Shown: piece by piece, positions 18,743-53,691 of the stretch
How the letters are laid out: each line of letters starts with the position of its first letter
How positions within the stretch are numbered: position 1 is the first letter of the stretch
Assembly (NCBI RefSeq): GCF_037076525.1
Contig: NZ_AP029018.1
Span: forward strand, 1,488,001-1,552,000
From: Selenomonas sp. TAMA-11512
Lineage (GTDB): Bacteria > Bacillota > Negativicutes > Selenomonadales > Selenomonadaceae
Reading direction: 5' to 3'
DNA length: 64,000 nucleotides
Program-made: the position numbers and the translations under genes
Notes under the pieces: model-generated
Told to the model about the DNA's origin: nothing
The model's database searches: none
Seen by the model: the letters and a program-made list of their open reading frames with translations, nothing else

Positions 18743-19666
18743 TTACCCTCTCTCCTCTATTTTCGCTGTGGACGACTGCGTTTCAGCAGGCGGTGCTTTT
18801 GGTATCGTCCAAGAAAGAAAACTCTCCGTACCAGGAAATTCATGCCGCAATTTCGTCAAAAGCACTTCCGCTTCTGCGCGTCCCTCCAGTAATCCAAAGA
18901 CCGTAGGACCGCTTCCTGACATCAGCGCTGCTGCGCCATGCATCTCCATAAAGTCTTTCAATCGTCTGATTTCCGGATATTCTTCTATCGTAACAACTTC
19001 AAGCACATTTTTCAGATGCTTCTTTATACTTTCCACATCCTGTGAACGTATGGCTTCCAGCATTGTCTCCGTTGCCGGGTGAGGCAAAGCTCCGAACGCA
19101 TCTGCCCTCTTGTAGACCCATGCTGTCGAAACCGCCGCTTTCGGCTTGGCCAAAACAACAAAAAACGCAGGCGCATCCGGAAGTCTCTCCAGAATTTCCC
19201 CACGTCCCGTCGCCAACATGGTACCTCCTTCATAACAAAAGGGGACATCCGAGCCAATCGAGGCGCACATATCCAAAAGGTCTTGCCTGCAAGGAGTCGG
19301 CTGGTAAAGAATCGACAGCCCTTTGATTACCGCAGCTGCATCCGTTGATCCTCCTGCGAGACCGGCAGCCATTGGAATCCTCTTCATCAGATGGATGTGA
19401 ACACCACCGGTGACCTTCTGTGTCTGAAAGAAATGTTTTGCAGCACGATATGCAAGATTTGTCTCATCGGCCTCCAGAGCAACATTTCCATCTATCGATA
19501 GTGATATCCCTGACGCACGCTTCTCCAGTCGTACTGTGTCGACGAGTGAAACGGTCTGCATGACCATCGTGACCTCATGATATCCATCCGGACGAATACC
19601 GAGGACATCCAGTGTCAAATTGATTTTCGCAGGGGCATCTAAGGTCACCGACCTCAATGTGTGCAA
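18743..19666 (-). CDS. ispE: 4-diphosphocytidyl-2-C-methyl-D-erythritol kinase
   Basis: GHMP-family kinase of the MEP isoprenoid pathway, 307 residues. The N-terminus APAKINLTLDVLGIRPDGYHE (about 11-31) is diagnostic. The ATP loop reads PMAAGLAGGSTDAAA (about 96-110), slightly divergent from the usual PxGAGLGGGSSDAA. LMSGSGPTVFG is the C-terminal GHMP motif. The start is TTG at 19666 with AAGGAGAG eight bases upstream. It heads the cluster and is preceded by a good promoter. Confidence 0.95.
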   Translation of the reverse strand: MHTLRSVTLDAPAKINLTLDVLGIRPDGYHEVTMVMQTVSLVDTVRLEKRASGISLSIDGNVALEADETNLAYRAAKHFFQTQKVTGGVHIHLMKRIPMAAGLAGGSTDAAAVIKGLSILYQPTPCRQDLLDMCASIGSDVPFCYEGGTMLATGRGEILERLPDAPAFFVVLAKPKAAVSTAWVYKRADAFGALPHPATETMLEAIRSQDVESIKKHLKNVLEVVTIEEYPEIRRLKDFMEMHGAAALMSGSGPTVFGLLEGRAEAEVLLTKLRHEFPGTESFLSWTIPKAPPAETQSSTAKIEERG

Positions 19667-19977: not shown

Positions 19978-21786
19978 ATGAAGCTTGAGGAGTTTGAATC
20001 CGTTGCTGCAGCTATGGGGGAACCGCCCCACGCAGAGGAGGATGCTATCTCTGCCGCGCATCGCAAAGAGAATGGCGAGCCGGTCACAGAAGAAACTCGT
20101 CCCCCAAAAAATACAATGCACGTTCTCTCTACCATTCTGCTCTTTTTTATCTTTCTCTTTGCTCTTCCAATTTCCATTGCACCGTTTTTTCTGCCGGATT
20201 TATTTGCAAACCTCGGCATTCCGAAAGAAATTTCTTTCCATCTTTGGACAGGTGCCGAGTGGCTTTTACTCCTCTTGAGTCTCGGATTATCCTTTCCCGT
20301 GTGGATGACCGGAGCCGGTGACCTTGTTCAGCTTCACTCGACAAGCAGAGGTCTCTATATTTGTACACTTGGCACTTTGACACTTCTGGCTGTTTTGATG
20401 AGCATTCACCGGTTTTTTTCCGCCATGCCGACGCATCATCTGCTGCCAACGGTGGTAATTGCCTTCTACGCCTTTGTTATCAGCTTTGGCAGTCTTCGCG
20501 AAAAACGTATTGCGTCTGCCGCTTCTGCGTCCATTCCTCCGATGCATACAATCCGTTCACTGGCTGCTCGTTTTATTGCATTTTCACTGCTGCTTGCATT
20601 TGCAGCTTCTCTCTGCTGGTTTGTTGTAGGACACATCGATATTACCGAAGCTATCATTCTCTTCTTCGCTTTGGCGGCGCTCGCGACACCGGCTGCTTTT
20701 CCTCTTGCTCTGCCGCTCGCCTGCAGCCTCTTTCAAAAGATGGCAAAACTTCATCACATGGAAATTAAAACGCCGCGGCTATTTGAATTACTGTCAGATG
20801 TCAGCGTTGTTGTTTACGATCGAAGCGGTACAGTTACAGAAGGGCGCCCTTTTTTGTCTCAAATCATTACAGAGGGTCTTTCGGAGAGCACGCTCATCGG
20901 GCTTGCCGCAAGTTTGGAAAACGGAGAGGATCACCCGCTTTCTCCCATTATCATGAATGCCGCCATCGAACGAAATGCGCGGCTTTCCAGAACGTCTGCG
21001 AGAAACTGCTTCCCCGGTCTCGGCATTGAGGCGATTATCTCCGGCCGCCCTGTTCGCCTCGGGAAACGTGCCTGGCTGGACGATGAAGGCGTGACGACAA
21101 GCGCGTCTCTTATTACACAGGGAGATCAGGCGGCTTCAAAGGGAAAAATCTGCGTTTATCTTGCCACCGATAAATCAACAAAAGGGATCCTCGTCTTTAC
21201 AGATGAGATACGCCATGACACAAGAAGAGCCATTCGCTTAATGTCAAATATCGGAGTCAAATCCCTGCTGCTCACAGGTGACTGCAAGCAGACCGCGAAG
21301 CGTCTTGCGCGTGATGCAGGCATACAATCGGTGCGCTTTGATCTCGCTCCGGAAGACAAGGTACGCGAGATACAGCTCTTAAGCACTCGCGGTCATACAA
21401 GTCTGATGCTTGCTGCAGGAAAAAGTGATGTAAAGGCACTGGCAGCAGCGGATATTTCCGTCCAATGCAAAAAGGGGATGTATCGCACGGCATCCGATGA
21501 TTTTACACCGGATGTTGTACTTATGAGTGATACAACCGCTGATTTGCCTAAACTCGTTGCCCTTGGAAAGGGAACTCGAAAAATTTTCCGGACAAGCCTT
21601 ATCACGGCCTTTATTGTTCAGCTCTTCCTTTTCCTTTTGGCCAACTTCGAGCTTGCCGCAACGCATTCTCTGACATTTTATCCCATGTATTTGTTGATTG
21701 GTGAAGTTTTGGGCATTTTCCTCTGCACACTGCAAATGCAGAGATTACGATATCTGGAGCTTCCCGTTTACGCCATTGACAGATAG
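19978..21786 (+). CDS. Degenerate P1B-type ATPase homologue, lacking the actuator domain
   Basis: A membrane protein of 602 residues from the ATG at 19978. Frame stays open upstream to a TTG at 19843, but that part is the repeat copy, and AGGAAAGGG lies 11 bases before 19978. There are about three pairs of membrane helices. The soluble part resembles the P and N domains of metal-pumping ATPases, but with altered motifs: DRSGT (from residue 281) for DKTGT, ATPAAFP (236-242) for the CPC helix, AGKSD (480-484) for GDGIND. EDHP, LTGD and PEDK are kept. The loop between the second and third helix pairs is only about 30 residues, so the actuator domain with TGE is missing. Pumping is unlikely. It lies 140 bases upstream of cydABDC, hinting at a role with cytochrome bd, though cydA has its own promoter. 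Confidence 0.75.
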   Translation: MKLEEFESVAAAMGEPPHAEEDAISAAHRKENGEPVTEETRPPKNTMHVLSTILLFFIFLFALPISIAPFFLPDLFANLGIPKEISFHLWTGAEWLLLLLSLGLSFPVWMTGAGDLVQLHSTSRGLYICTLGTLTLLAVLMSIHRFFSAMPTHHLLPTVVIAFYAFVISFGSLREKRIASAASASIPPMHTIRSLAARFIAFSLLLAFAASLCWFVVGHIDITEAIILFFALAALATPAAFPLALPLACSLFQKMAKLHHMEIKTPRLFELLSDVSVVVYDRSGTVTEGRPFLSQIITEGLSESTLIGLAASLENGEDHPLSPIIMNAAIERNARLSRTSARNCFPGLGIEAIISGRPVRLGKRAWLDDEGVTTSASLITQGDQAASKGKICVYLATDKSTKGILVFTDEIRHDTRRAIRLMSNIGVKSLLLTGDCKQTAKRLARDAGIQSVRFDLAPEDKVREIQLLSTRGHTSLMLAAGKSDVKALAAADISVQCKKGMYRTASDDFTPDVVLMSDTTADLPKLVALGKGTRKIFRTSLITAFIVQLFLFLLANFELAATHSLTFYPMYLLIGEVLGIFLCTLQMQRLRYLELPVYAIDR

Positions 21787-21851: not shown

Positions 21852-21880
21852 TTGCAAATCACAGACTATCGTTTTATAAT
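21852..21880 (+). promoter_or_regulatory. Sigma-70 type promoter for cydABDC
   Basis: -35 TTGCAA (21852-21857), 17-base spacer, -10 TATAAT (21875-21880), about 46 bases upstream of cydA. The sequence TTTATGCC occurs twice just upstream (about 21788 and 21841), and TTGTGATTTT (about 21819) looks like half of a Rex site, but no full palindrome is seen. Confidence 0.8.
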
Positions 21881-21926: not shown

Positions 21927-23294
21927 ATGAGCACAGCTGTCCTATCACAGTGGCAGTTTGCCATTACATCCATCTATCATTTCCTCTTTGTCCCTATTAC
22001 ATTGGGTCTCACTTTTTTCCTAGCACTTCTTGAGACCTGTTATGTTCGCACAAAGAATGAGGAATGGAAAAAACAGTGTCGAATTCTCTTACAGTTTTTC
22101 AGCACGGTCTTCTTGATCAACTTCGCCATGGGCGTCGTCACAGGTATCGTTCAGGAGTTTCACTTTGGCATGAACTGGTCGGAGTATTCTCGTTTTATGG
22201 GTGATATCTTCGGTGCACCGCTTGCCCTCGAAGCACTCACGGCATTCTTTCTTGAGTCTACCTTCCTCGGCATTTGGATCTTCGGCTGGGATAAACTCTC
22301 GCCAAAGGTACATTGCATTGTCATGTGGCTGGTTGCTTTGGGCAGTAATCTATCGGCGTTTTGGATTCTCGTTGCAAACTCTTTTATGCAGAGCCCGCTC
22401 GGTTTCTCCATTGAAAACGGCCGTGCAGTCATGACGGATTTCGGGGCCCTTGTCACCAATCATTATGTCGTTGGAGAGATGAGTCATACCTTCTTTGCCG
22501 GCATGACGACCGGCGGCGTTCTCATTGTCGCAATTTCCGCATACAAAATTCTCCAAAAAGGTGAGCACGTTGATGCTTTCGTCAAGATCATCAAAGGTGC
22601 CGCACTTTATACCCTCATCGGCTCTGTCCTCCTCATTGCCAGCGGTCACTTCCATACCCAGTATCTTGCAAAAGCCCAGCCCATGAAGCTTGCTTCCATG
22701 GAGGCTCTGTGGCATACGGAAGATCCCGCTCCATTTGCAGTGCTTGCTCTTCCGAATGAAGAGAAGATGGAAAATGATTTTGAAATTACCATTCCCTTCC
22801 TCTTTTCTTTTTTGGTACATGACTCTTTTTCCGGCGAAGTCAAAGGCATTTCCGACTTGCAGCAGGAAGCCGTTCAGATGTATGGCCCGGGAAAATATAT
22901 CCCGCCTGTCATGACGCTCTTCTATGCCTTCCGTGTCATGGTCGGCGCCGGCGGACTCATGTTGCTCTTGATGTTTGCTGTATACATGGCGGCACGCAAG
23001 GGTGTTATTCAGAAGTATCCGCTTTTCTTAAAGGTTCTTCTCTTCTCTCTGCCATTGCCGTTTTTGGCGAATTCAGCCGGCTGGATTGTCGCGGAGGTCG
23101 GCCGTCAGCCTTGGCTGGTGGTCGGGCTGCAGCAAACGGTTGACGGGGTCTCTCCAAATCTCACAGCAATGGATATATGGATCACAATGATCGGATTCAC
23201 GCTCATCTATCTGGTCCTCATTGTTCTTGCGCTTGGTGTTGCCATTCGATTTATTAAAAGCAACCCGGTATCCCATGAAAGGAGTGAAGCATAA
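21927..23294 (+). CDS. cydA: Cytochrome bd ubiquinol oxidase subunit I
   Basis: Haem-bearing subunit of the bd-type terminal oxidase in the cytoplasmic membrane; reduces oxygen to water with quinol and no proton pump. At 455 residues it is of the short Q-loop type. Conserved blocks: the N-terminal RWQF-like SQWQFAITSIYHFLFVPITLG with haem ligand His, the GRQPWLVVGLQQT block (about 390-402) of the haem b558/quinol region, and NHYVVGEMSHT. The binding site GAAAGGAAGG precedes the start. It heads cydABDC and shares TAATG with cydB. Confidence 0.97.
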   Translation: MSTAVLSQWQFAITSIYHFLFVPITLGLTFFLALLETCYVRTKNEEWKKQCRILLQFFSTVFLINFAMGVVTGIVQEFHFGMNWSEYSRFMGDIFGAPLALEALTAFFLESTFLGIWIFGWDKLSPKVHCIVMWLVALGSNLSAFWILVANSFMQSPLGFSIENGRAVMTDFGALVTNHYVVGEMSHTFFAGMTTGGVLIVAISAYKILQKGEHVDAFVKIIKGAALYTLIGSVLLIASGHFHTQYLAKAQPMKLASMEALWHTEDPAPFAVLALPNEEKMENDFEITIPFLFSFLVHDSFSGEVKGISDLQQEAVQMYGPGKYIPPVMTLFYAFRVMVGAGGLMLLLMFAVYMAARKGVIQKYPLFLKVLLFSLPLPFLANSAGWIVAEVGRQPWLVVGLQQTVDGVSPNLTAMDIWITMIGFTLIYLVLIVLALGVAIRFIKSNPVSHERSEA

Positions 23295-24304
23295 TGGAGC
23301 TCCAAATCTTATGGTTTGTCTTGATCGTCGTCCTCTTCACAGGGTTCTTCTTCCTTGAGGGTTTCGACTATGGCGTCGGTATGCTTCTTCCCTTTGTCGG
23401 CAAGTCGGACATCGAACGCCGTCAGGTGCTTCGAACCATCCTGCCCGTATGGGACGGAAATGAAGTCTGGATGATTACCGCCGGCGGCGCTTCATTTGCC
23501 GCTTTCCCGCATTTCTATGCAACGATGTTCTCCACCTTCTATCTCGCACTTTTCTTGATGCTTGTCTGCTTGATCTTACGAGGTATCGCTTTCGAGCTTC
23601 GTGACCGCAGTGAATCGCTTACATGGCGTAAAAACTGGGATAAAGCGATTGTCTTTGGCAGCACGGTGCCTGCTCTTCTCTGGGGCATTGCTGTGACTGA
23701 TCTCATTGCCGGGCTTCCCATCAATGCGAACATGACCTACATGGGCGGCTTCTTCGGTCTCCTTTCTCCATACTCCGTGATTGGCGGTCTCACATTTGTA
23801 TTCGTCTTTGCATTCCATGGGGCGGCCTTCCTTTCACTGCGCCTTGCTAATCAATCTCTGATTGATCGCGCGCAGTCGATTGCCAAAAAAGCAGGTGCAC
23901 TTGCTGTTGTTTTCTTTGTACTCTGCATGGTACTTACTTACATGTATACGGATCTTTACGACAATACGCTCGCAGCGGCTGCACTCATACTGGCTGCCGT
24001 CTTCTTCCTCATCGGCTATTTTTCCCTTATGGTCGGCGCTTCAAAGCGCGCTTTTATCGGCTCCTCACTTGCCATCGTCTGCACGACGGTTGCTTTTTTC
24101 GCAGGACTTTTCCCCCGCTTGATGGTATCCAGCTTTGATCCCGCCTATAGCCTTACGATTTACAATTCCTCATCGACACCTTACACGCTCTTTATCATGA
24201 CGATTGCAGCCGGCATTCTTGTCCCGATCGTACTTGCATATCAGATTTACACCTATTACATCTTCCGTAAACGTGTAACGGAAAAAGACCTCGGACACTA
24301 TTGA
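23294..24304 (+). CDS. cydB: Cytochrome bd ubiquinol oxidase subunit II
   Basis: A 336-residue polytopic membrane protein pairing with CydA. The start FVLIVVLFTGFFFLEGFDYGVGMLLPFVG and the block ILPVWDGNEVWMITAGGASFAAFPHFYATMFS (about 47-80) are the classic CydB signatures. About nine membrane helices are visible. It overlaps cydA by one base and is followed after one base by cydD, so the four cyd genes form one translation-coupled operon. No cydX-like small gene is evident between them. Confidence 0.97.
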   Translation: MELQILWFVLIVVLFTGFFFLEGFDYGVGMLLPFVGKSDIERRQVLRTILPVWDGNEVWMITAGGASFAAFPHFYATMFSTFYLALFLMLVCLILRGIAFELRDRSESLTWRKNWDKAIVFGSTVPALLWGIAVTDLIAGLPINANMTYMGGFFGLLSPYSVIGGLTFVFVFAFHGAAFLSLRLANQSLIDRAQSIAKKAGALAVVFFVLCMVLTYMYTDLYDNTLAAAALILAAVFFLIGYFSLMVGASKRAFIGSSLAIVCTTVAFFAGLFPRLMVSSFDPAYSLTIYNSSSTPYTLFIMTIAAGILVPIVLAYQIYTYYIFRKRVTEKDLGHY

Positions 24305-24305
24305 T

Positions 24306-25970
24306 ATGAAGCACGCCTTTCTCTCATCTTTCTTAAAATCGGAAAAGCATTGTCTCCTTAAAATTGCCGGTATAAAGTTTCTTGCAGCCGCTGCGGCTGC
24401 CTCAGCGGCCTTCATGACGGCCGCAATAATTAACGGCGTCTTCTTAGAGGGAATGGATATCGAGAAAGCAGCACCTCATCTTGCGGTGCTGCTTTTTCTA
24501 CTGTCCTTCCGCCATCTTCTGACAGGACATGCCGGAATCATGGCCGATGCCCTATCTGCAGCTCTGCGGCAAACAACACGCAGGAGACTGCACAAATCCT
24601 TACTCGACGCATCTCCGCTTGACGGGAAAATCGCAGGCAATCGACATCTCTTCGCACTATTTACAGAAACCGCGGACGGTCTGGATGATTTGGCGCGTCA
24701 GCTGATTCCGCTTGTGCTGGAGATCCTTGTAACGCTGCCTTTTTTCTTTTTCCTCGCACTCTTTATAGATCCGTGGACTGCGGGACTGTTCTTTTTGACG
24801 TTTCCCATCACCCCCTTCCTGCTTTATCTGATTGGGCGTGTGACAGGCAAGGCAAGCGCCCGCGAATGGAACCATCTTTCAAAATTAACAGCAAATTTTT
24901 CTGAACTCCTTGCAGCCATTCCTTCCTTGAAAATGTGGAATCAAACAGAAGGACAGATTACAAGGCTTTCAAAACTCAGTGATGACTTTTCCTCTTCTTC
25001 CCTTTCTGTTCTGCGGCTGGCCTTTGTATCCGCCTTTGTATTGGAACTCATCACGACACTTTCCATTGCATTGATTGCTGTCAGTATCGGCTTGCGGCTC
25101 ATCAATGGCATGATCACGTTTTTCCCCGCCTTCTATGCACTTCTGCTGGCTCCACTTTTCTACCAACCCCTGCGTGAAAGCGGACTTGCTTTTCATGCAG
25201 GAGTCCATGCCATAGCTGCCTACAAAGAGCTTGCACTCTTTTTGGATGACCATCCAGCGGAAAAGCCGCGCTATACAGCGACAACACAAATGCCTCCCGG
25301 ATTCACATTGGATCATGTTTCTTTTTCCTACACGAACCGAGCATCAAAAGCTCTCTATAATATCTCCCTGCACATCCCTGCCAATCGAATAACTGTATTA
25401 ACAGGTACGAGCGGTATCGGAAAATCAACCGTTCTTCGCCTTTTAGCGGGATTTTCCACACCTACGGAAGGCGTGATATACTTAAATGACCTTCCGCTTC
25501 ACTCCATCGACCCGGAGTTCTATACTTCCAGGATTGCTTATATTCCACAAGATCCATACATCTTTCGTGCCACCTTGCGTGAGAACATCACAATGGAGTT
25601 TGGACAGGATGCCTCCTCTATGCCATGCGCACCCACAGATGAAAAGATTCTATCCGCGCTGCAGGACGCCTCACTTTCCTACTTAGCCACCCCCAGAGGA
25701 CTCCAATCTCGTTTAGGGCAGGGAGCCGTCACACTCTCCTTTGGCGAGCGGCGCAGACTGGGACTTGCCCGCGCTATATATCAAGATGCTCCGATTTGGC
25801 TTTTAGATGAAATCACCGCCGGCCTTGACCGTGAAAACGAAGCTATGATTCTGTCCACACTTGAGGCCTACAAGAAGTGTCGAACCATTGTAATGACAGC
25901 GCATCGACCGACTGTTCTTGCCATTGCCGACACGATTATCAATATCGAAGCAGAGGTGAGCCATGCATAA
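24306..25970 (+). CDS. cydD: ABC transporter CydD subunit (thiol exporter for cytochrome bd assembly)
   Basis: A 554-residue fused membrane/ATPase half-transporter. Six helices (about 15-300) include VLELITTLSIALIAVSIGLRLINGM, a CydD-typical helix. The ATPase has Walker A TGTSGIGKST (about 366-375), a signature LSFGERRRLGLARAIY (C-loop LSFGE rather than LSGGQ), and Walker B IWLLDEITAGLD. CydDC exports cysteine or glutathione and is needed for haem insertion into cytochrome bd. The start lies two bases after the cydB stop; the end overlaps cydC by eight bases. Confidence 0.93.
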   Translation: MKHAFLSSFLKSEKHCLLKIAGIKFLAAAAAASAAFMTAAIINGVFLEGMDIEKAAPHLAVLLFLLSFRHLLTGHAGIMADALSAALRQTTRRRLHKSLLDASPLDGKIAGNRHLFALFTETADGLDDLARQLIPLVLEILVTLPFFFFLALFIDPWTAGLFFLTFPITPFLLYLIGRVTGKASAREWNHLSKLTANFSELLAAIPSLKMWNQTEGQITRLSKLSDDFSSSSLSVLRLAFVSAFVLELITTLSIALIAVSIGLRLINGMITFFPAFYALLLAPLFYQPLRESGLAFHAGVHAIAAYKELALFLDDHPAEKPRYTATTQMPPGFTLDHVSFSYTNRASKALYNISLHIPANRITVLTGTSGIGKSTVLRLLAGFSTPTEGVIYLNDLPLHSIDPEFYTSRIAYIPQDPYIFRATLRENITMEFGQDASSMPCAPTDEKILSALQDASLSYLATPRGLQSRLGQGAVTLSFGERRRLGLARAIYQDAPIWLLDEITAGLDRENEAMILSTLEAYKKCRTIVMTAHRPTVLAIADTIINIEAEVSHA

Positions 25971-27666
25971 AAGACATCCCCTTTGGGCACTTCTTCGCAT
26001 GATGCATCTTTCTTCTTTCATCCCGGCTGCAGCTTCCTCTTTTTTATCTTCTCTTTCATCCGTTCTTTTGATGGCTTCTTCTGCCTGGTTGATTGCAACG
26101 GCGGCTCTTCTTCCTCCGCTGGCCGAGCTATCCGTTGCAATTACATTTGTGCGCGCTTGCGGTATTTTCCGTGCTGTATTTCGATATTTGGATCGCTGGC
26201 TTTCCCATCAGGCAACGTTTCGCCTTCTAACGAGCCTTCGACTGGCAGTTTATCGCCTTGCGGTACATCATCTCCCTATCAAGGATACCCCCATAAGTCA
26301 AGGAGCTTTTCTCAATGACCTCACCGTCGGCGTCGATGTCCTGCGCGACTTTTACCTTCGCGCTGTTGCTCCGCCTCTCTTGGCTCTTTTCCTTGCCGTC
26401 CTTGCAAGCCTGTGCCTATATACCGTCTCTTCGTATGCGGCATGGATCCCTTTTTTCCTCTTTATAAGCTCGCTTCTCATTCCCTGCCTCACTCTGCGCT
26501 GTTACGGATTTGACGAGCAGATGACAGCGGCCGATACAAACTATCGAGATACCCTTATCGATGCAAGTACCGGACTCTCTGATCTCCGCACAGGGCGAAC
26601 AAAGGCTTGCCCTGCAGCGGGTGCCGAAAGTTTTTTCACCCGGCTTGAGTCGGCTTCCCTGCAAAGGAACGACCTTGAACAGAAAAAGCGACGTATCGAA
26701 CGGCATAGCGATACCCTGCTGCACATCGTTCACTCCGCTCTTTTTGTCTCCCTTTTTTATATCTTAGTTGAAGCCGGTACACTCAACGGGATATGGCTTG
26801 CTGTCTATATCTTAGCTGCCGAAACTCTTTTCCAGGAATTTTTGGCACTGCCGGAAGCCGTCCGAGCCTTCTATCGAACAATACGTGTAACTGAGAGACT
26901 CCTTGGCACCTCGTCGCCCGGTTCTCCCTTGGCGGAGTCCGCCGGAGATCGTGCAGCAAAAATGCCGCTTCAAGAACAGATACATTTTTCTGCGGCGTCA
27001 TCCAATACGGATTCATCTCCTATTCTTGCCTCTTCTCAACTTACTTTTGCCTATTTGAAGACTGCTCCCATATTCTCCGACTTATCTTTCTCAATACAAG
27101 CCGGTGAACATGTCGCACTGATTGGCGAGAGCGGCACAGGCAAGACGAGCCTATTTCATCTCCTGCTGCGTCTCTACGAACCGGACAGCGGTACGTTGCA
27201 GCTTGCAGGCAAGGATTATTCAAGCTATACGGCAGAAGACATACGGGCCCATTTTGCCGCGTCTACACAGGCAAGCTATCTCTTTTCGGAAAGTATTCGC
27301 GCAAATTTTGAGCGATTCCATCCAGGGCTTTCCGATGACGCCATCCTAACTTCTCTTCAAAAAGCCTTCTTTACCGATACATTGGATGCACTGCCTCAGT
27401 CGCTTGATACGCCGATTGGCGAGGATGGCTCTCTCTTATCCGGCGGACAAAGGCAGCGTCTGCTCCTTGCCCTTGCCCTTGCAGCGAAAAATCGTCCGAT
27501 TCTCCTCTTGGATGAGCCAACGGCCGGACTGGACCGCCAAACGACAAATCGGGTCCTTACGTTCATACAACAGGAAAGTCAGTCTCGCACACTTCTCCTC
27601 ATCAGTCATGACGACTCCGTTATCGCACATGTATCACGGACAATCCGTCTCCATTTTACAAAATAG
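25963..27666 (+). CDS. cydC: ABC transporter CydC subunit (thiol exporter for cytochrome bd assembly)
   Basis: A 567-residue partner of CydD. The N-terminal helices carry LMASSAWLIATAALLPPLAELSVAITFVRACGIFRAVFRYLDRWLSH, matching the ALSGWLI...GI/R...YLER-SH pattern specific to CydC. Walker A is GESGTGKTS, the signature LSGGQRQRLLLALALA is intact, and Walker B is ILLLDEPTAGLD. It overlaps cydD by eight bases. No terminator is obvious after it; the next gene, sstT, has its own promoter. Confidence 0.93.
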   Translation: MHKRHPLWALLRMMHLSSFIPAAASSFLSSLSSVLLMASSAWLIATAALLPPLAELSVAITFVRACGIFRAVFRYLDRWLSHQATFRLLTSLRLAVYRLAVHHLPIKDTPISQGAFLNDLTVGVDVLRDFYLRAVAPPLLALFLAVLASLCLYTVSSYAAWIPFFLFISSLLIPCLTLRCYGFDEQMTAADTNYRDTLIDASTGLSDLRTGRTKACPAAGAESFFTRLESASLQRNDLEQKKRRIERHSDTLLHIVHSALFVSLFYILVEAGTLNGIWLAVYILAAETLFQEFLALPEAVRAFYRTIRVTERLLGTSSPGSPLAESAGDRAAKMPLQEQIHFSAASSNTDSSPILASSQLTFAYLKTAPIFSDLSFSIQAGEHVALIGESGTGKTSLFHLLLRLYEPDSGTLQLAGKDYSSYTAEDIRAHFAASTQASYLFSESIRANFERFHPGLSDDAILTSLQKAFFTDTLDALPQSLDTPIGEDGSLLSGGQRQRLLLALALAAKNRPILLLDEPTAGLDRQTTNRVLTFIQQESQSRTLLLISHDDSVIAHVSRTIRLHFTK

Positions 27667-29102: not shown

Positions 29103-29810
29103 ATGAATTCCGAACAGTTCCACCAACTCACACATCTCGTCATGGATAGTCCTGCCAAGCCGCCGGAGGCACTCTTTGCAGGCGGATTCGATGATTGGCA
29201 CGCGCGTGCTCACCTTGCCCATCTCCTATCCGATCCTCAATTCGAGCACCTTGCAGAGGCAAAGGAGCTCTTCCGATCCATCGTCGATCAGGAAGTCAAT
29301 CCGGATTTCGCTCTTGATGTCGAGACAAAAGCCTATGCGCTCCAAAGGCTTTCCGCACTCGAAAAAAATGACAATGAATACGAAAACGCCCTGTATCATA
29401 TCAGTCTTTCCATTGAGACGGCAGAGGAAAGCGACTTTCTATACCACTATCTCCTGCGCGGAGAGCTGTGGGCAGACCGCTGGTCCATCCTCCATGCCAT
29501 GGGCAAAACGCAAGATGCCGAATCCGAATGCGATGAGCGCATCGATATCTACAAAAATCTGCCTATCGAACACAACAGCTACCTTTATTACGGATATCGC
29601 TTCAAGGCGCAGCTTGCTGCGGAGCGTGGAGATATCACCTTTATTGTCAAAGATTATATGCGCATGGCGCTTTCTTTTATGGATATCCCGGAGTCGTATC
29701 GAGACGACTTAGAGAGCGCCTTTTCCATCGATCATGAAGGTTCAACCTTTATTCTGCGCGCCATTGACCTTGCTACCCCCAATCCGGACAATCTGCATTG
29801 GGATATCTGA
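29103..29810 (+). CDS. Unrecognised helical protein, possibly TPR-like
   Basis: A 235-residue soluble protein I do not recognise. It is rich in Ala, Leu and acidic residues with repeated helix pairs: AHLAHLLSDPQFEHLAEAKELFRSIV, YALQRLSALEKNDNEYENALYHISLSI and RWSILHAMGKTQDAESECDERIDIY. These resemble tetratricopeptide helices, which suggests a protein-binding scaffold, but no repeat fits the consensus well. No signal peptide or membrane helix is seen. It starts after a good AAAGGAG binding site, directly behind the sstT terminator, and converges on the lipid kinase gene. Confidence 0.6.
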   Translation: MNSEQFHQLTHLVMDSPAKPPEALFAGGFDDWHARAHLAHLLSDPQFEHLAEAKELFRSIVDQEVNPDFALDVETKAYALQRLSALEKNDNEYENALYHISLSIETAEESDFLYHYLLRGELWADRWSILHAMGKTQDAESECDERIDIYKNLPIEHNSYLYYGYRFKAQLAAERGDITFIVKDYMRMALSFMDIPESYRDDLESAFSIDHEGSTFILRAIDLATPNPDNLHWDI

Positions 29811-50558: not shown

Positions 50559-50768
50559 TCATTCGATGCTCGTCACTTCATATCCGGCTTCCACGATTGC
50601 CTCTTTGAGTGCCGCATCCTTAACACGGTCATCCACAGTCACAACCGCGTGATTGTTTTCAAGACTTACCTCAACGGATTCCACCCCGGCAACGCCGTTG
50701 AGCGCCTTTTTTACATGCTTGACACAATTTTGGCACATCATACCTTCGATCGAGATTGTCTTTTTCAT
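50559..50768 (-). CDS. Possible free CopZ-like chaperone from an internal start within copA
   Basis: The last 69 codons of copA begin [15 protein letters not shown], exactly like a stand-alone CopZ (about 68 residues, MxCxxC copper site). Directly before this ATG, on the minus strand, is AAGGAG (50785-50780), 11 bases upstream. This could allow internal initiation and release of a soluble chaperone as well as the fused domain. E. coli makes a free chaperone from copA by frameshifting; here the frame is the same. Production of the short form is inferred, not shown. Confidence 0.4.
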
Positions 50769-53159
50769 AATTTTCTCTGCTCCTTTTTCACTTTGTACTT
50801 CTTTTACATCTATTTGAGCCGATGCTGTCAAAAAGCCCGGCAGCTCAACAGGATCCTTCGTCCGCTTCGACCTTTGATTTGGGTCGTAGAGATTCAGCCG
50901 AAGCGCGTTTGTCACAACGCAGAAGCTGGACAACCCCATTGCCGCGGCTCCCACAACAGGACTCATCGTCCATCCGAAGAGGGGAATATAGACACCCGCT
51001 GCCAAAGGAATGCCGATGACATTATAGAAAAATGCCCAAAACAAGTTTTCCTTGATATTTTTGATGGTCTGTCTCGATAGACGTATCGCGGCAGCAATAT
51101 CCAACGGTGTCGACTTCATCAAGACGACGTCCGCCGCATCGACCGTCACTTCCGCTCCGGCACCTATAGCGATTCCAACATCTGCACGCGTCAACGCAGG
51201 CGCATCGTTGATCCCGTCGCCAATCATGGCAACCTTTCCGTACTCTTGCAGCTTTCGGATAATCTCGTCTTTATCTCCGGGCAATACATCAGCCGCAATT
51301 GCCGTGAGCCCGACCTCTCTTCCGACAGCTTCTGCGGTCTTCCGATTATCTCCCGTAAGCATGACCGGCTGCAGCCCCATCTCCCGAAGCATTTCTATCG
51401 CCGTCTTGCTGTCCGCTTTCACTTGATCGGCGACGGCAATGACACCGATGATATGATATTCTTCCGACTGCTTCACGGCAAAGAACATAGGCGTCTTTCC
51501 GGCTGCAGAAAGAGCGTCTGCCGTCCCGCGGACAGCGGATGTATCCGCCCCCATCTCCTGCATGAGCCGCAGATTCCCCGCAATGGTTTCATATACCGTT
51601 CCTGCCGCAGAAACCTGACCGGAAACACCGTGCCCCGGCAGCGCACGGAAATTTTCTGCAGCCGTAACAGGCCCGTGCAAATCAGCTGCTTCACGAATCG
51701 CGACTGCCAACGGATGCTCGCTTCGGGCTTCTATAGAGCCTGCAAAAGAAAGCAGCTCCCGCTCCGTCTGCCCGTCCAATGGTATCACGTCGGTGACCTG
51801 CGGCTTTCCTTCTGTAATCGTACCTGTTTTATCCAGCACGACAAAGTCAACTTTTCCGGCATTTTCAAGAGCGCCGGCTGTTTTGAATAAAATTCCCTGC
51901 TTGGCTCCCCGACCGGATCCCACCATGATCGCAACGGGCGTTGCAAGCCCTAAAGCACACGGGCAGCTGATGACCAGCACACTGATCGCTCTTGCCAATG
52001 CAAAGCTCGTACTCGCTCCGGAGAGCAGCCAGGCAGCACCTGTCACGACAGCTATGCCTATAACTACGGGGACAAAGATTCCGGCGACACGATCTGCCGT
52101 ACGGGAAATCTCCGCTTTTGAACCCGCCGCATCCTCGACCATTTTAACGATTTGATGCAGGGTCGTATCACTTCCGACACGTGTAGCTTCCACCGTCAAT
52201 GCACCGTTTTGGTTGATGGTCGCCGCACTGACAAAATCCCCCTTCGCCTTATCTACAGGGACACTCTCACCTGTAAGCGCAGATTCATTGACCGCACTTT
52301 CACCGGACAGGACTCGACCGTCGACGGGAAAACTTTCTCCCGGACGCACGATGAATGTATCGCCTACGACAACTTCACACACATCCACAGTGATTTCTTC
52401 ACCGTTTCGAACGACATGCGCTCTCTTTGGAGATAAGTCTAACAGCGCACGAATGGCGTTCGTCGTTTTCCCTTTACTTCTTGCCTCAAGATACTTTCCC
52501 ACCGTGATGAGCGTGAGTATCATTCCGCTTGTTTCAAAATAAAGATCGCCGCTGCGGCTTGTCATTCGAGCAAGATCGCCAAGTCCTGCGGCTTCCATCA
52601 TCTCGAAGCAAACGGCCGTACTGTATACAAAACCGGCGCCGGCACCCAGTGCAACCAATGTATCCATATTCACTCCACCCGAAAAGGCGTTTTTGAATCC
52701 GGATACAAAGAATTTCTGATTGATGATCATGATAATGACCACTAAAAGCAATTCGTAAAGTGCCGCGATCATCGGATTGGAAAATACAGCTGGAAGCGTC
52801 CACCCGCCCAGACCGGACATCGATACATACAGCAGCGGCACGAGGAACACCACTGATGCAATTAACCTTTTCCTGATGACAGGGGATTCCTTATCCTCTA
52901 ATGCCGCGCGGTCATTTACTGCATCATATTTTGCGGACGCGTTCTCATTATTCGCCAGCGATGATCCATAGCCCGCCTTTTCAACCGCCTCTGTGATCAT
53001 GCTGCTGTTCGTACGTTTGTCATAAGAGACAAGCATCGAATTTGTCAATAGATTGACAGCGACCATATTCACGCCGGGCACAGCCCTGACTGCTTTTTCA
53101 ACGCGTGCAACACAAGCAGCACACGACATCCCTGTTACATTATATTTTTCGTTATCCAT
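50559..53159 (-). CDS. copA: Copper-exporting P1B-type ATPase CopA with a C-terminal CopZ-like domain
   Basis: An 866-residue Cu(I) exporter of the cytoplasmic membrane. The N-terminal metal-binding domain has GMSCAAC (10-16). The pump motifs are complete: TGES (296-299), CPC (399-401), DKTGT (443-447), SEHP (480-483) and GDGIND (647-652). After the last helices comes a linker and a second metal-binding domain from residue 798 with GMMCQNC. That tail is the size of a free copper chaperone CopZ, and its own Met has a binding site (see 50559-50768). It lies 163 bases after csoR in a copper-responsive operon. Confidence 0.97.
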
Positions 53160-53322: not shown

Positions 53323-53691
53323 TTACTTTAACTTCTTTATCAAATCCACCGTTTCCGCAATGATCTCCGTATGTCCCGCCTTAATCTCATCTGCAACACA
53401 TGATTCCAGGTGGCTCTCTAAAACAACATATCCGAAATTTTGCAGCGCACTTTCAACAGCAGAAACCTGTATCAATATATCCCCGCAATAACGTCCGTCA
53501 TCAATCATCTTTTTGATACCGTTCATCTGCCCGATGATACGGTTTAATCGATTCTGTAACGACTTGATTTGCACCGCTCCGCGAGACTTGTTTCTGTAGC
53601 GGACTTCACACAGGGGACATTCTCTTCGGTCCGCAGACAGTAGCGTGCGCTCGTTTTCTCTATCAAGGGCTTTGTTTTCTTTTGTATTCAT
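53323..53691 (-). CDS. csoR: Copper-sensing transcriptional repressor CsoR
   Basis: A 122-residue all-helical repressor that leaves DNA when it binds Cu(I). The three Cu ligands of the family are in place: C69 (GRYCGDI), H94 and C98 (ESHLESC). QNRLNRIIGQMNGIKKMI is the DNA-binding helix. The N-terminal extension has CPLC (C25, C28), not part of the usual Cu site. GGAGG lies six bases before the ATG. It sits behind a promoter that contains its likely operator, followed by copA on the same strand. Confidence 0.95.
   Translation of the reverse strand: MNTKENKALDRENERTLLSADRRECPLCEVRYRNKSRGAVQIKSLQNRLNRIIGQMNGIKKMIDDGRYCGDILIQVSAVESALQNFGYVVLESHLESCVADEIKAGHTEIIAETVDLIKKLK

Follow-up and report, generated by a model that had tools for sequence, protein, structure and literature searches.

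A copper-pump remnant of the Selenomonadaceae under purifying selection focused on its nucleotide-binding domain in most genera

Among described systems, the protein examined here stands closest to CopA, the Cu+-exporting ATPase of type P1B-1 (structures 3rfu, 7r0g and 3a1c), with which it shares descent, the fold of the P and N domains and the order M3-M4-P-N-P-M5-M6, the nucleotide residues of the N domain being largely kept. Unlike CopA, this remnant has no HMA domain, no A domain (except in genus g6), no CPC motif, no phosphorylated Asp (except in the protein that gave rise to this study) and no accompanying csoR or copZ, its GDGxND motif is degraded, and its shortest versions, hereafter mini-forms, also lack MA-M2. 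Two further systems bear comparison: CcoI, which acts on cbb3 oxidase by moving copper, and human TMEM94, also named ERMA, for which we know of no close kin. P1B ATPases of the CcoI/FixI type resemble the present case in that a P1B ATPase is considered beside a terminal oxidase, CcoI serving the biogenesis of cbb3 oxidase according to the available part of PMC8475189; they differ in that the remnant looks dead as a pump, its neighbour is cytochrome bd and the link to bd is loose. Going by the accessible portions of PMC12134183, TMEM94 is the nearest analogue in kind, with a P-type-like A/P/N architecture devoid of TGES, no nucleotide at the proposed site and no phosphorylation cycle, yet micromolar affinity for AMPPCP; in the same portions it differs from the remnant in being eukaryotic, in keeping an A-like domain and in having ten helices. 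ERMA has been called an ER Mg2+ ATPase (PMC13322241, as far as available, which carries the name TMEM94). The preliminary description of this DNA knew of no family with such a form, and indeed no described family of P1B remnants devoid of both A domain and phosphorylated Asp was found in the domain libraries and the literature searched, which lay mostly outside subscription papers and included the available part of a 2023 review (PMC10654040).

The window gene and its product

In the window, that is, the whole stretch of 64,000 nucleotides analysed, an open reading frame starting with ATG encodes a product of 602 residues (Table 1). P and N domains are present in it and HMA is absent. Using Pfam, a HAD Hydrolase domain is found over the cut-off at residues 276-492 (52.6 bits), and E1-E2_ATPase is matched at residues 178-251 with 20.6 bits, below its cut-off of 28.1; since this match is confined to the membrane tail, the A domain is considered absent. 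A simple hydropathy scan predicts 8 helices, arranged like those of P1B pumps as four, two, P-N-P and two, and by alignment and hydropathy a gap of ~ 15-20 residues between M2 and M3 stands where the A domain belongs. Among NCBIfam models, TIGR01525 (heavy metal translocating P-type ATPase) matches best; its 202 bits stay below the cut-off of 346, which was likewise reached by none of seven other degenerate members tested. TIGR01494, the 'HAD-IC family P-type ATPase', is passed by the window protein (102.7 bits against a cut-off of 62.3) and missed by three of the same seven (L161, L038 and L147). Through TIGR01494 the window protein would probably be annotated automatically as a P-type ATPase, and such labels on many remnants would distort estimates of how many metal exporters the Selenomonadaceae of rumen and mouth possess.

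The motifs were aligned to P0002, the product of the intact copA that the preliminary description had reported elsewhere in the window and that was confirmed there, with CPC, DKTGT and GDGIND. At the CPC position the window protein reads TPA. In DRSGT, Asp281 and the Thr are kept, the Lys being replaced by Arg and the first Thr being changed as well; Ala takes the place of the first Asp in GDGxND, and TGD and the lysine of PxDK are retained. Asp281 is the window protein's exception within its own family, and its closest relative, L120, reads SKSGG at the phosphorylation motif. The nucleotide residues of the N domain are all found (E314, H319, G347, G349 and G362).

Structure modelling, which had been proposed beforehand, was performed using AlphaFold2. 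The window protein gave a mean pLDDT of 79, with P and N mostly at 84-96 and the N-terminal helices at low confidence, and a mini-form from Selenomonas ruminantium gave a mean pLDDT of 84. In Foldseek, copper ATPases are the best match of both models (7r0g, TMq 0.59 for the window protein and 0.85 for the mini-form), and the CopA P-N fragment (3a1c-e) matches the models with TMt of 0.89-0.91. From these matches the CopA P/N fold is predicted to be kept despite the lost chemistry. Pfam, alignment, hydropathy and the AlphaFold2 and Foldseek results thus bear out the earlier account of a protein which retains the P/N outline, lacks the actuator domain and carries changed CPC, DKTGT Lys and GDGxND motifs relative to P0002.

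Table 1. Features of the window discussed in the text
Feature	Coordinates	Strand	Basis or remark
Divergent neighbour, presumably ispE	18743..19666	-	commoner syntenic partner across genera
Degenerate P1B-type (CopA-derived) ATPase, 602 aa	19978..21786	+	ORF, profile searches, alignment, tree
Short M2-M3 linker replacing the CopA actuator domain, residues 178-195	20509..20562	+	alignment, Pfam, hydropathy
ATPAAFP in M4, replacing the CPC metal site, residues 236-242	20683..20703	+	alignment to P0002
DRSGT, altered DKTGT phosphorylation motif, residues 281-285	20818..20832	+	alignment to P0002
N (nucleotide-binding) domain, residues 300-409	20875..21204	+	conservation, substitution rates
AAGKSD, degraded GDGxND of the P domain, residues 479-484	21412..21429	+	alignment to P0002
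Sigma-70-like promoter TTGCAA-17-TATAAT (10 of 12), between remnant and cydA	21852..21880	+	weak: 6 such sites against 3.0 expected by chance
cydABDC	21927..27666	+	profile searches; functional link not supported
235-residue protein, no Pfam match over cut-off	29103..29810	+	homologues in 101 of 189 family genomes
Intact CopA of other lineage (P0002), two HMA domains, one of them C-terminal	50559..53159	-	ORF, Pfam, genome comparison
CsoR-like repressor upstream of intact copA	53323..53691	-	judged by eye, Cys-His-Cys pattern

Distribution, descent and grades of degeneration

A first search of 41 genomes showed that many genera of this family possess relatives, which are divergent and in many cases shorter. 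Searching with an alignment of 15 relatives (A2) and accepting E 1e-83 or better, we counted an orthologue in 171 of the 189 family genomes; this threshold was chosen post hoc in the gap between genomes G136 (1.4e-84) and G163 (3.2e-81). The degenerate form is carried by 165 of the 189. In total 80 loci were read, namely 6 intact and 74 degenerate ones (23 genera, window included), the other genomes being counted by score and listed frame length; L047, another metal ATPase caught by the first search, is excluded from all counts. The 20 lowest-scoring genomes above the threshold were searched again (G005, read as L042, apart) and gave 19 frames of 351-493 residues and, in the g6-type genome G078, one of 757. 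When 380 genomes of the class were searched, the matches listed from beyond the family fell in five places, where every frame is full-size (758-842 residues). Relatives from named species that lack DKTGT or CPC include Selenomonas ruminantium, S. ruminis, S. noxia, S. infelix, S. flueggei, S. felix, S. massiliensis, S. artemidis, Centipeda periodontii and Anaerovibrio lipolyticus; a relative from a Megamonas MAG, cut by the contig end, carries HMA, TGES, CPC and DKTGT. Both Anaerovibrio and Megamonas belong to the Selenomonadaceae according to NCBI.

The degenerate frames are open in 72 of 74 loci. One in-frame stop each is seen in L080 and L112, which could be sequencing errors or real loss, and in L092 and L131 the frame lacks the usual C-terminal helices in a frameshift-like manner; in L092 the downstream cydB was also matched in two pieces. 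With orthologues in that many genomes and frames this largely open, sequencing error or a lone pseudogene, raised at the outset as possible refutations, can be set aside. The same goes for homologues with intact motifs and for homologues scattered at random in genomes: the gene is retained along descent and stands opposite ispE in 39 of the 69 degenerate loci with upstream room, from 18 of 23 genera.

The phosphorylated Asp is missing in 61 of 62 aligned degenerate proteins. In the same set the first Cys of CPC is lost in 53 and the second in 59, its Pro being kept in 55, and the Asp of GDG is lost in 45. Neither a full CPC nor TGES at the A-domain position occurs in any of the 74 degenerate loci, and the A domain itself survives only in four loci of genus g6. 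These losses of phosphorylated Asp, CPC, GDG and TGES show, on the grounds of sequence, a remnant that would not pump.

Several grades can be distinguished. All of HMA, P1B helices, A, P, N and every motif are found in L031, L033, L037, L099 and L111, and in L032 up to the contig end. In grade one (genus g6; L042, L096, L097 and L098) HMA and the Asp are lost and the A domain is kept, with TGES altered to TGKK, TGDS or TGIK; among living forms, this full-length one comes nearest to a transition from pump to remnant. Grade two, in which the A domain is lost and the N-terminal helices are kept, comprises the window protein, L120, L034, L036, L038, L040, L044, L088 and L116-L119. Most other loci fall into grade three, the mini-forms, with frames of ~ 365-495 residues starting near M3, and forms of ~ 400 residues make up the majority of the remnants. 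Long insertions before M5, after the P domain, occur in the mini-forms L010, L035, L041 and L046 and are partly rich in Pro, Glu and Ala.

The final tree was built from 74 rows and 258 columns covering the P and N domains, without the outgroup loci L025, L029 and L030 (wrong frames) and ten near-copies; L080, L082, L112 and L114, which are interrupted, near-copies or located on short contigs, entered none of the trees. All 62 degenerate rows form one clade (support 100/99), outside which branch the intact L031/L032, then L033, then L037, with ordinary CopAs as outgroup. The window protein and L120 are sisters (100/99). The deepest branching order inside the clade is weak (90/74), so that the grades of loss need not be successive steps and the A domain may have been lost once or repeatedly. 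The degenerate clade is of single origin and shares common descent with CopA, as follows from the tree together with synteny with the intact copA loci.

The gene goes back to an operon for copper export. A CsoR-type repressor, read by eye from sequence, lies directly upstream in four of the six intact loci (L031, L032, L037 and L099) and a copZ-like frame lies downstream in five (L031, L033, L037, L099 and L111), the sixth contig ending first. By tblastn neither csoR nor copZ was found at any of the 74 degenerate loci, of which some lie on short contigs. Furthermore, the six genomes with an intact locus lack a second CopA: in each of them P0002 matches the locus gene itself best, followed by a different metal ATPase at E 2e-91 or weaker. 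Among the 165 genomes bearing the degenerate form, another CopA (P0002 match at E 1e-140 or better) is present in 153; the 12 without a strong match are 59-94% complete. Another CopA is thus at hand and the old pump has been converted, not lost; the second CopA would have taken over its copper work, and in the window P0002 probably replaces the lost pump. P0002 carries HMA at both ends, a CopZ-like domain being fused to its C-terminus.

Selection on the N domain

In intact CopAs the P domain is more conserved than the N domain, which is the fastest part in pairs of intact pumps. Indeed, the ratio of P2 to N identity among intact CopAs (n = 14, both lineages) has medians of 1.76, 1.50 and 1.51 at N identities of 0.25-0.35, 0.35-0.45 and 0.45-0.6, compared to 0.72, 0.61 and 0.59 in the degenerate clade, and the 5-95% ranges of the two sets do not overlap in any of these three bands. 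At N identities of 0.6-0.95 the medians are 1.08 (intact) and 0.75 (degenerate) and the ranges just touch.

Substitution rates were examined in 68 close pairs of degenerate proteins. For the aligned core, dN/dS lies between 0.04 and 0.23 in 58 pairs and is not computable in 10, the ratios being rough because dS is often near or above 1. The dN of N is lower than that of P2 in 64 of the 68 pairs, and after pooling in 15 of 16 groups, that is, in all six genera pooled first, which were hand-picked, and in nine of ten groups added later, the source of the exceptions. Among the five segments compared, N evolves most slowly in 12 of the 16 groups; P2 is slower in g19, and P1 is slower in g15 and in two groups of g13. 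Pooled dN for N and P2 amounts to 0.012 and 0.121 in g9 and to 0.039 and 0.248 in g7, with a small difference in g21 (0.106 and 0.139). At synonymous sites N changes about as much as the other domains, which leaves a DNA-level effect behind the conservation of N unsupported, and in g9 and g7 N is nearly unchanged although synonymous sites have turned over. The remnant is under purifying selection which is inverted relative to intact pumps and focused on N in most genera. The preliminary description had suggested nucleotide binding without pumping, and motif losses and rates together support a selection-maintained remnant, unfit for the normal pump cycle, whose nucleotide-binding domain is the most protected part.

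Which residues are kept was considered next to the known contacts. In P1B N domains the nucleotide is contacted by a Glu, the His of an HP motif and three Gly, according to the available part of PMC5089723. Among the 62 aligned remnants the Glu is retained in 57, the His in 55, the first Gly of GxG in 45, and the second Gly of GxG and the Gly of GN in all 62; the replacements of the His (7 of 62) and of the first Gly (17 of 62) mean that nucleotide binding may not be universal. In the pair L106 and L107 (g13), one of the 4 exceptions among the 68, the nucleotide His is absent and N differs more than P; judging from this pair, the constraint on N could follow nucleotide binding.

N holds 29 of the 47 positions conserved at 75% or more. 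The most clade-specific of its positions are E351 (62 of 62), R360 (94%), T380, D383 and Q384 (90-97%), which exceed their conservation in the 14 intact CopAs, are not classical ATP contacts and are partly present already in the intact sister pumps. They could form a protein-binding face. In the model, E351 and R360 would face each other on the G349/G362 side of a predicted hairpin (349-354/357-362).

Genomic neighbourhood and proposed role

In the window cydA begins 140 bases past the stop codon of the remnant on the same strand, and the preliminary description was correct in placing the cytochrome bd genes there, in the order cydABDC. It had asked whether homologues with the same losses stand beside cydAB, and this holds for part of the family: of the 68 degenerate loci with downstream room, 24 (8 of 22 genera) are directly followed by cydA and the others are not. 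In L037 and L099, which come from one genus, cydABDC also trails a pump that is intact, so that the neighbourhood may predate degeneration. The commonest neighbour cluster is that of ispE, near the gene in 42 of 80 loci, and no neighbour follows the gene into all its contexts. Of the 189 genomes, 143 have both orthologue and cydA, 28 the orthologue only (26 remnants and 2 intact pumps), 12 cydA only and 6 neither (Fisher p = 0.10; 14 of the 34 genomes without cydA were assigned by elimination from the hit list), and genomes of 99-100% completeness are found on both discordant sides.

We tentatively favour, at somewhat less than an even chance, a former copper pump that no longer pumps and is built around its N domain, acting as a sensor, a regulatory subunit or a scaffold. 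The starting point was a csoR-copA-copZ copper-export operon. In lineages with another CopA, the old pump shed its regulator, metal-binding domains, metal site and phosphorylation chemistry; all but one genus also lack the actuator domain, and in most loci the part ahead of helix M3 is gone altogether. What is left is a membrane anchor and the N domain on a remnant P domain. Phosphoryl transfer would play no part: the N domain would bind either an adenine nucleotide or, on the same face, a partner, and its state, occupied or empty, would be relayed to a membrane or cytosolic partner, no obligatory tie to cytochrome bd being required for this work. We infer from residue conservation that N binds a nucleotide or a partner; a nucleotide is preferred given that some nine in ten members retain the contact Glu and His, and the conserved non-contact residues would also suit a protein partner. 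Isolated P1B N domains may bind ATP poorly, as those of HMA6 and HMA8 did not bind it (PMC5089723, in its available part). It is possible but doubtful that the remnants constitute a family-wide class of pseudo-P-type ATPases in bacteria, with the one-time copper pump's ATP-binding domain, anchored by four to eight helices, serving as a nucleotide sensor or allosteric subunit.

A regulatory partnership with the replacing CopA, in which N would dock onto the new pump, or onto the HMA domains of that pump, with nucleotide binding in a secondary role, seems unlikely. It would explain why the degenerate form co-occurs with another CopA and is not found in the six intact-locus genomes, and why the clade-specific conserved positions lie outside the ATP contacts; however, such co-occurrence is expected without any interaction, as every genome needs some CopA, genera g8 and g11 possess the other CopA although the remnant is missing there, and the 12 remnant-bearing genomes mentioned above (59-94% complete) lack a strong match to it. 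Some members, foremost the window protein, might still perform chemistry, such as a slow phosphatase or an autophosphorylation signal, since DRSGT keeps Asp and Thr and both TGD and the PxDK lysine are in place. We regard this as improbable, considering the Ala at the first Asp of GDGxND and the Arg at the Lys of DKTGT in the window protein itself, the SKSGG of L120 and the loss of the Asp in 61 of 62 proteins, by which the family would stay unexplained.

A helper in cytochrome bd assembly or in haem or metal delivery, a role put forward in the preliminary description, we judge quite improbable. The 24 of 68 loci with cydA next, in 8 of 22 genera, and the same strand and short distance in the window speak in its favour; against it stand the 28 genomes with the gene and no cydA, the 12 with the reverse, which leave an assembly role unsupported, and the two genomes of one genus in which cydABDC adjoins an intact copA. 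A weak promoter-like site also lies ahead of cydA, so that cyd may not depend on read-through, and bd oxidase is not known to contain copper. Metal cargo as such is unlikely because CPC, HMA, csoR and copZ are all lost. A copA pseudogene decaying on its way out would fit the progressive domain loss, the absence of the gene from some genera, the in-frame stop in 2 of 74 loci and the aberrant C-terminal ends of L092 and L131, but it is very hard to reconcile with an orthologue in 171 of 189 genomes, dN/dS of 0.04-0.23 in 58 of 68 close pairs and an N domain near-static in g9 and g7 despite synonymous turnover; decay would not spare one domain across 23 genera.

Under the favoured reading of a non-pumping protein built around N, one bacterial family retains a dead-looking copper pump, seemingly with a new job, and guards chiefly its ATP-binding part. 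If N has a job of its own, the remnant shows what this domain can do without phosphoryl transfer; and if the living series from intact pump to mini-form is true, the conversion of a pump into a regulator is traceable grade by grade, the intermediates making the loss of pumping testable. Remnant-free genomes also occur in nature, in g8, g11 and g22 (G007, G073, G010, G074, G075 and G021), with cydA and the other CopA kept; the five from g8 and g11 are 99-100% complete and G021 is 91% complete. They are useful as natural deletions of the remnant.

The 235-residue protein encoded downstream of cydABDC was considered as an obligate partner and rejected, its homologues being present in the remnant-free g8 and g11 and none being found at E 1e-15 in g13 and g7, which mostly bear the remnant. 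Its homologues often adjoin the remnant or sit a few genes away.
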